From Diaphorobacter sp. HDW4A (GTDB lineage Bacteria; Pseudomonadota; Gammaproteobacteria; Burkholderiales; Burkholderiaceae_C), in the NCBI RefSeq assembly GCF_011305995.1, contig NZ_CP049910.1, positions 1,674,001 to 1,738,000 on the forward strand: a DNA stretch of 64,000 bases. The letters are read 5' to 3'. Position numbers and translations under genes: made by a program. This document shows, in pieces, positions 8,349 to 57,570 of this stretch. The notes beneath the pieces were generated by a model, which was given only the letters and a program-made list of their open reading frames with translations, did no database searches and was not told where the DNA came from. The first letter of the stretch is position 1; each line of letters opens with the position of its first letter.

Positions 8349-8917
8349 AGCTCGATTCCTTTTGCCTTCAGTGCCTTGCTCAGCGTTTGAATGGCGCGGA
8401 AGCAGTGCGTTTTGACGCTGCCCTCGGAGCAACCCATCGCTGCGGCCGTTTCTGCAACATCCATTTCCTCCCAGTAACGCATGAGAAAGGCTTCTCGTTG
8501 ACGCGCAGGCAACTCCTGTATCTCTTTTTCTATTTCATGGAAGATCTGCTTGCGACGGATCTGGTCTTCCGCGCTCTGGCTGCCTTCTCGCTGATCGCCC
8601 TCGATGGCGTAGTTCTCCAGCAGGTCAAAATCACCAGCGTCGTCACTCGAGCTTTCAAAGTCGCTGAGACTCGTGAACAAAGCGTTACGAGTTTTTTGTC
8701 GGCGGAACCAATCAAGCGTGCTGTTCGAGAGGATGCGCTGAAACAGCATCGGCAGCTCGTTGATGGGCTTATCCCCATAATGCTCGGCCAGTTTGATCAT
8801 GCTGTCCTGGACGATATCCAGTGCGGCCTCCTCATCGCGAACGTGATAGACCGTGCGCTTGAAAGCACGTTTGTCTACGCTCTTGAGGAAATCTGACAGT
8901 TCTTGTTCGGAGGCCAA
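8345..8917 (-). CDS. ECF-like RNA polymerase sigma factor (sigma-70 family)
   Basis: This sigma factor has about 190 residues. Region 2 is RDEEAALDIVQDSMIKLAEHYG followed by LFQRILSN..LDWFRRQKTRNALF. Region 4 is LPARQREAFLMRYWEEMDVAETAAA then GCSEGSVKTHCFRA, the helix-turn-helix that binds the -35 element. The open frame continues upstream to an ATG at 9043, but the family start (ASEQELSDFLKSV) corresponds to a TTG at 8917 or 8923, with GGGAC just before it. I chose TTG 8917; the start is uncertain. It is coupled to the DUF3619 gene and divergent from ilvB. Its regulon is unknown. Confidence 0.85.
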   Translation of the reverse strand: MASEQELSDFLKSVDKRAFKRTVYHVRDEEAALDIVQDSMIKLAEHYGDKPINELPMLFQRILSNSTLDWFRRQKTRNALFTSLSDFESSSDDAGDFDLLENYAIEGDQREGSQSAEDQIRRKQIFHEIEKEIQELPARQREAFLMRYWEEMDVAETAAAMGCSEGSVKTHCFRAIQTLSKALKAKGIEL

Positions 8918-11082: not shown

Positions 11083-11156
11083 GACGAATCTATTGCCTGC
11101 CGAGCTTGGTGTTTACCGACATCAGGGGAGGGTAGCGAAAAGAGGAATCGCGCATC

Positions 11157-12852: not shown

Positions 12853-12989
12853 GCGAAGCCCGCGGCTTCGATGGCTGACCGCTTTGTGGCGGCCATACAG
12901 CCCCTCATGCTTTGTTGCAAAGCCTTGTCGTACGAGAGTACTGCCTGCGGTTTTGCGTCGCGCCTGAGGGGCTGTCTTGCCGTTGGGGT
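12853..12989 (+). repeat. Dispersed two-hairpin repeat, copy 1
   Basis: This is one of two related copies; the other is inverted at 57430-57570. Small hairpin: CGAAGCC-CGC-GGCTTCG (12854-12870). Large hairpin: outer stem ACAGCCCCTCA (12897-12907) with TGAGGGGCTGT (12965-12975); inner stem GCAAAGCC (12917-12924) with GGTTTTGC (12949-12956); apex GTAC-GAGA-GTAC (12930-12941). Both stems are kept in copy 2 by paired base changes. It occupies most of the gap between the ilvC terminator and the leuA leader; no protein-coding gene is seen here. Confidence 0.85.
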
Positions 12990-13045
12990 TTATTCGAAGG
13001 CCCTCTGTGCTGCTTTGGTCCGCTCCGGGATTCGGGGATCAGGGC

Positions 13046-57365: not shown

Positions 57366-57429
57366 AGAAAACGCGGCTGTTCGGACTTCGCACAGTGGGC
57401 CTGCGAAGCGCAGAGCGCCCCGATCACCC

Positions 57430-57570
57430 ACCCCAACGGCAAGACGGGCCCTCAGGCTAGGCGTCGAAGCCGCAGACAGTACTCTCGTACGGCAAGGCTT
57501 CGACAACAACGCATGAGGGCCCGTATTGCCGTCTCAAAACGAACAACCAATCGAAGCCGAAAGGCTTCGT
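57430..57570 (-). repeat. Dispersed two-hairpin repeat, copy 2 (inverted relative to copy 1)
   Basis: Read on the minus strand it aligns over about 140 bases with 12853-12989. Small hairpin: CGAAGCC-TTTC-GGCTTCG (57552-57569). Large hairpin: outer stem ACGGGCCCTCA (57444-57454) with TGAGGGCCCGT (57514-57524), continued by ACGGCAA/TTGCCGT; inner stem GTCGAAGCC/GGCTTCGAC; apex GTAC-GAGA-GTAC. It begins 19 bases past the HerA-like gene stop on the same strand and fills most of the gap between two convergent genes. Confidence 0.85.

Follow-up and report, generated by a model that had tools for sequence, protein, structure and literature searches.

The window, that is, the whole 64-kb stretch of Diaphorobacter sp. 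HDW4A DNA that was analysed, contains two stretches of one element, located at 12853-12994 on the plus strand and at 57425-57570 on the minus strand. Copy 1 lies between ilvC upstream and a leuA-like gene downstream, and copy 2 is preceded by a HerA-like gene on the same strand and faces a convergent lysR-type gene. An ilvH RNA (RF02993, 84.7 bits) was also detected upstream of ilvC, at window positions 11083-11150. The features of the two copies are the following:

12877..12994, plus strand: core element of copy 1, matched by covariance model R1 with 120.9 bits and E 1.2e-28 (genome 1686877-1686994).
12854..12870, plus strand: optional 5′ small hairpin of copy 1 (CGAAGCC/GGCTTCG), read from the sequence.
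12888..12895, plus strand: 5′ side of the basal stem of copy 1 (partner 12977-12984), from the sequence and the covariation alignment.
12897..12907, plus strand: outer stem of copy 1, ACAGCCCCTCA (partner 12965-12975), from the sequence and the covariation alignment.
12918..12924, plus strand: inner stem of copy 1, CAAAGCC (proposed partner GGTTTTG, 12949-12955), from the sequence and the alignment; the DNA fold of this single copy prefers a different inner pairing.
12929..12950, plus strand: conserved apex of copy 1, CGTAC-GAGA-GTACTGCCTGCGG, from the apex pattern search.
57425..57544, minus strand: core element of copy 2, matched by model R1 with 139 bits and E 1.5e-33 (genome 1731425-1731544).
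57444..57454, minus strand: outer stem arm of copy 2 (partner 57514-57524), from the sequence, the alignment and the single-copy fold.
57470..57491, minus strand: conserved apex of copy 2, CGTAC-GAGA-GTACTGTCTGCGG, from the apex pattern search.
57552..57569, minus strand: optional 5′ small hairpin of copy 2, read from the sequence.

A preliminary description of this DNA had reported two copies in opposite orientation, each just 3′ of a same-strand gene (ilvC and the HerA-like gene) and with stems altered by paired changes. The copies were found at both places with the neighbours and stems as described, 95 of the 120 aligned core columns being identical between them. The extent of about 140 bases given at that time corresponds to a real repeat and falls short of the whole element, as the model core reaches position 12994 and a loosely conserved module is present 3′ of the cores in this genome. 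The small 5′ hairpin is an optional part, observed in 41 of 80 copies of the genome vs 5 of 80 control stretches. At a tolerance of three mismatches or fewer the apex pattern matched the window twice, vs no match in 100 dinucleotide shuffles. Folding of the window copies as single-stranded DNA resulted in z values of −3.6 for copy 1 and −7.9 for copy 2; the best fold of copy 2 was the pairing as proposed, and that of copy 1 kept the outer stem and the apex, with the inner part paired otherwise.

The element is one of about 80 dispersed copies in the Diaphorobacter genome. A search of the whole genome (6.76 Mb) identified 30 places with three mismatches or fewer (11 forward and 19 reverse, vs none in the control), and 82 of 84 loci reached E ≤ 1e-6 with the covariance model, leaving out antisense matches. 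Duplicate loci among L031-L060 were also dropped. These results exclude a repeat limited to the two copies of the window, a possibility that had been raised in the preliminary description. Model R1, built from 28 Diaphorobacter copies, gave 109 matches at E ≤ 0.01 among 150 candidates scored, many of them being weaker hits to the antisense strand of sites also matched in sense. No two cores were identical: the closest pair of the 73 compared was 96.6% alike, with a median of 74%. The strict pattern was present in all six genomes of the genus that were searched, including this one. Two copies, L007 and L015 (at approximately 1,168,430 and 4,400,880), were left out of model R1 on account of an inverted-repeat element of about 160 bp inserted within them, with ends GGGACCCTC; both carry it at the same CTAG-like position. 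In L251, the hairpin apex is interrupted by an unlike inverted-repeat element, about 170 bp long (approximately 8360-8540), the ortholog in genome G004 of the L036 site.

The overall shape of the element is one long bulged hairpin around the conserved apex TTGCCGTAC-NNNN-GTACTGTCTGCG. In the alignment of 28 Diaphorobacter copies 96.3% of 895 cells were paired, cells being sequences counted and not independent events; shuffles averaged 83.5% and none of 500 reached the observed value, and slid controls gave 31-47%. Changes on both sides were found in 16 of 32 pairs (111 cells), which supports the paired structure around a conserved apex given in the preliminary description. A diverse betaproteobacterial set was obtained by keeping 61 of 98 cores and dropping 37 as redundant; in it, 82.5% of 1092 cells were paired vs 27-49% in slid controls. 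Members have in common a core of about 65 nt that consists of the apex TTGCCGTAC-N4/5-GTACTGTCTGCG, a variable but paired inner stem, and an internal loop with unequal sides (5′ CGTYGTTG / 3′ CGCCTAG or CCTTG). Besides the stems, this asymmetric loop, the sequences flanking the apex and a T.C mismatch that is nearly invariant are fixed, and in several families the apex stem is present as a compensated variant, GTGC/GCAC. The Diaphorobacter copies possess the core hairpin with the apex and the GTTG/CCTAG loop, a feature of the Correia/BOX superfamily proposed below.

A scan of named genomes for 21 fixed apex bases revealed at least 119 stretches in many Betaproteobacteria as well as in Streptococcus and clostridial records, compared with an estimated chance expectation of about 0.1 match in the collection. 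A second covariance model, R2, was built from betaproteobacterial cores only. It matched 11 of 11 genomes chosen for carrying the motif, among them 7 of 7 streptococcal genomes with 8-120 matches each, numbers that are capped by the candidates scored and in which antisense matches may be included. In unselected samples, with at most 14 candidates scored per genome, R2 matched 15 of 299 Pseudomonadota (the Diaphorobacter genome included) and 3 of 299 Bacillota, one of these being a known centre; therefore, the distribution is patchy and chance matches of R2 are rare. The strict pattern was found in 22 of 200 genomes of the order Burkholderiales. When the 25-nt search motif was excluded and the flanks alone were compared with the betaproteobacterial profile, all 10 of the 10 streptococcal loci scored still fitted it (p 0.0002-0.014; an eleventh locus, L292, was unscored), as did one of four clostridial loci, the other three fitting at the apex only. 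Hairpins from clostridial MAGs (L079, L121, L135, L178 and L137) are short and have the apex motif in common, and the flanks of L079 and L137 do not fit the core profile.

Within the Pseudomonadota sample, ten matches to the beta-only model were found blind in G049, a Neisseriaceae-like genome of 1.8 Mb. The stretches of nine G049 elements contain 19 copies of GCCGTCTGAA, the Neisseria uptake word. Nine G049 copies are bounded, with one or few mismatches, by the Correia inverted repeats printed in the section of PMC5039591 used here; therefore, the beta-only model had found Correia elements without prior knowledge of them. The Correia core (CREE / nemis) is identical to window copy 2 in 53 of 70 aligned columns, and Correia elements resemble the Diaphorobacter family in the hairpin core, the apex, the asymmetric loop, the similar size and the high copy number, which exceeds 100 per genome according to the same paper. 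On the contrary, the Correia ends TATAGTGGATTAA were not seen in the Diaphorobacter family; its copies carry further modules 5′ and 3′ of the hairpin, and no TA duplication was found in them. The 26-29 bp Correia terminal repeat (tatagtggattaa), present in the G049 copies, was not seen in the flanks of 70 Diaphorobacter copies.

A similar relationship was observed with BOX, the core of S. mitis L109 being identical to window copy 2 in 46 of 66 columns. BOX also has long pairing arms, and a 3-bp TNA duplication as in several betaproteobacterial lineages; it differs in that the arms are unrelated and boxB modules were not seen in the Diaphorobacter family. In the mitis group, 15 of 16 rows, in which some loci appear twice, contained the 22-nt BOXA1R site with 2-3 mismatches, the sixteenth row being the sequence of clostridial L079. 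The boxA/boxC ends were not found in the Diaphorobacter family, and the BOXA1R site is present there only in part, the longest run in common with the primer being 11 nt in 27 copies. The part of Croucher et al. (PMC3049150) considered here describes boxA, boxB and boxC together with boxC-like repeats of S. suis, and states that no BOX was found in H. influenzae, N. meningitidis and S. aureus.

The BRE element, as presented in the excerpt of Hot et al. 2011 (PMC3110155) that we used, is about 90 bp long, dispersed and mostly intergenic, with hosts in Comamonadaceae, Alcaligenaceae and Rhodocyclaceae. Compared by this description alone, it fits the Diaphorobacter family in size, dispersal, intergenic sites and hosts, and it may be the same element; it probably belongs to the Correia/BOX superfamily. 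No convincing LexA motif was found beside copies at 14 loci of G098, a putative Bordetella. In the parts of PMC3049150, PMC5039591, PMC3110155 and PMC10969869 considered, BOX, Correia and BRE are described apart, and within the portion of the literature covered by our search no paper was found that joins Correia, BOX and the betaproteobacterial repeats. The preliminary description had recognised no named element at this locus; this holds, as far as searched, for the Diaphorobacter family itself and not for its core, which is that of Correia and BOX.

The core is common to the different lineages, and the outer arms are wholly different between them and resemble transposon ends. Copies of the Streptococcus sp. 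121 type (25, one of them from S. suis) are nearly identical, have sharp boundaries and include one tandem pair with a single TA in common; 23 of the 25 are flanked by TA at either end. A TA duplication was observed in 8 of 9 Correia copies of G049, one being unscored, and TA was likewise found in 4 of 8 copies of the GGACTT group and in 1 of 4 of the GAGGC group. Identical 3-mers bounded 7 of 11 BOX copies (six of them TNA), 12 of 19 copies of the TTCC group and 8 of 15 of the GAG group, some of the failures in these three sets being misplaced anchors, and all five Eleftheria copies showed TNA. The hallmarks of a MITE, terminal inverted repeats and a target duplication, are thus present in other lineages. 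In the Diaphorobacter family an offset scan, confounded by conserved sequence, found no target duplication or sharp end, and the comparison of two sites did not give a clean empty-site junction. Several betaproteobacterial copies begin at a stop codon. Because TNA includes TAA and TGA, insertion into a stop codon keeps a stop, and this helps explain the presence of copies at gene 3′ ends.

We consider it probable, at about 0.73, that the element belongs to a superfamily of non-autonomous DNA transposons (MITEs) with a conserved hairpin core that joins Correia, BOX and betaproteobacterial elements across phyla. This reading takes in the observed copy number, the covariation, the core in common, the duplications of other lineages and the gene 3′-end context. 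The lineage-specific arms would be the terminal inverted repeats on which a transposase encoded elsewhere works in trans, and insertion would duplicate TA or TNA. The core hairpin would be read as folded DNA, as suggested by the covariation, and the paired changes would reflect a DNA hairpin or cruciform formed during replication or transposition. Duplications of TA and TNA suggest a transposase of the DDE type. The support for such movement comes from the sister lineages only, and we infer transposition in trans and mobility of the Diaphorobacter copies. It has to be noted that the mixture of 2- and 3-bp duplications counts against the MITE reading, as it would require either two different transposase types or one type that has changed its duplication length. 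Correia and BOX are well-known repeats for typing and gene-control studies and have been treated as distinct families whose origin is unclear; with a core common to Pseudomonadota and Bacillota, harmless hosts can be used to test where they come from, how they move and in what fold, and a single model is able to find relatives in other genomes.

A search for ends in Cupriavidus NC_007974.2 and Eleftheria NZ_CP106952.1 yielded 15 and 10 ends, respectively, making 11 pairs and three single ends. All 11 pairs belong to elements, two single ends belong to elements whose other end has decayed, and the remaining one lies in an ORF of 327 aa without the core; no autonomous IS or transposase with matching ends was found in these two replicons. 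In five genomes PF13586 gave three weak matches, none above the cut-off, and neither the ends of S. thoraltensis nor the core were seen beside them. Clustering of 570 ORFs around 80 of the at least 119 loci revealed no common enzyme gene, and plasmid searches with four elements returned 0, 7, 0 and 1 records.

A broader proposal, doubtful although possible, is that a single ancient DNA-hairpin parasite underlies Correia, BOX, BRE and many repeats without a name, a parasite whose core would be recognised in its folded form by the same conserved partner everywhere (either a host factor or a transposase type in common) and whose ends would have been swapped to suit the transposase of each host. 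The same facts have also been considered from the opposite side, with the core as an independent functional module, a hairpin bound by a host protein, that several unrelated transposon families acquired. The occurrence of one core between ends that are unrelated in sequence and of either TA or TNA type is consistent with such a module, as is the finding that some clostridial elements have only the apex in common. However, these facts are equally explained if the elements descend from a common ancestor and their ends have drifted, and we know of no protein that binds the core; we regard acquisition of a module as unlikely.

Another explanation would deny the hairpin any role, the pairing resulting only from identical transposase ends or from slippage that copies one arm onto the other. 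The outer arms do resemble transposon ends, and long palindromes are prone to template switching. Two observations make this explanation improbable: the inner stem beside the apex covaries in the diverse betaproteobacterial set (74.5% of cells) though it is far from the ends, and the near-invariant T.C mismatch and the asymmetric loop persist where such correction would erase them.

The selected structure had been attributed in the preliminary description to either RNA or a cruciform, and most of the evidence points to DNA. In RNA, a change from G-C to A-U usually passes through a G-U intermediate. The Diaphorobacter copies showed 59 G-T, 43 A-C and 2161 Watson-Crick pairs among 2361 cells, a count that leaves out two basal G-T columns, and the diverse betaproteobacterial set showed 23 G-T, 36 A-C and 878 Watson-Crick pairs among 1092 cells. 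There was no excess of G-U on either strand in either set, vs 44 G-U and 0 A-C of 562 in a control of 26 tRNAs, which is rough because the tRNA finder favours standard pairs. According to crude gene calls, the context of 82 Diaphorobacter copies was convergent in 30 cases, codirectional in sense in 26, antisense in 21 and divergent in 5, with no orientation bias in the codirectional gaps. Since G-U is about as rare as A-C and orientation bias is absent, it is probably as DNA that the pairing is maintained, in a hairpin near gene 3′ ends, and folded DNA would be the working form.

On the RNA side, a small RNA or mRNA 3′-end element could be under selection and have spread as a mobile regulatory RNA. 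The strong covariation would suit it, and the GNRA tetraloops found in 24 of the 59 scored copies (of 80) in the Diaphorobacter genome speak against the DNA-level reading; GAGA alone accounts for 17 of these, and the enrichment may come partly from descent of GAGA-bearing copies. In the diverse set there is almost no constraint on the sequence of the apex loop, which is GNRA in 3 of 61 cores and thus not GNRA-like there. In the parts of the sources considered, the Bordetella BRE overlaps the detected small RNAs bprJ1/bprJ2 (PMC3110155), BOX elements are transcribed and RNA roles are reported or proposed for Correia and BOX (PMC3049150), and RNase III cleavage of nemis is named in the title of a reference. 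No Rfam match was found at the element, either in the window at the gathering threshold or in 10 loci at E ≤ 1. Weighed with the base-pair counts and the orientation data, these results leave a selected RNA quite improbable. A match to SpR20 (Rfam) in S. mitis L109 stands apart from the cores of that locus.

An origin as a REP/REPIN element that depends on a RAYT (Y1 transposase) for its movement is very unlikely: the elements are likewise dispersed intergenic palindromes, and each of the five genus genomes searched has one Y1_Tnp match, but this number is independent of copy number (one in the Diaphorobacter genome, which has about 82 copies, one each in G001 and G003, where the strict pattern matched 1 and 4 times, and none in G156, with 40 pattern matches), the duplications of the sister lineages are TA/TNA, and the conserved part is the apex, where REP/REPIN elements have a conserved foot motif. 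The link to a RAYT that the preliminary description had proposed to look for was not found, as none of the 12 Y1_Tnp loci fetched contained an element.

Several relatives showed particular locations or arrangements. In Rhodocyclales (L065, L164, L171 and L177) a relative with different arms was found just 3′ of ilvC, as copy 1 is in the window. In family f55 (L367, L368, L371, L372 and L404, from three genera), a copy is situated right after the pstB stop codon in five of five matching genomes, the distance from the stop codon to the apex motif being 37-40 nt in the four measured; this position within the phosphate transport operon is conserved, perhaps because of a kept function. Two longer copies of Cupriavidus metallidurans NC_007974.2 (L314 and L315) measure about 190 bp end to end and contain extra internal hairpins that recall boxB of BOX. 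Finally, Janthinobacterium sp. 344 (L125) harbours four tandem copies, 217-228 bp apart.
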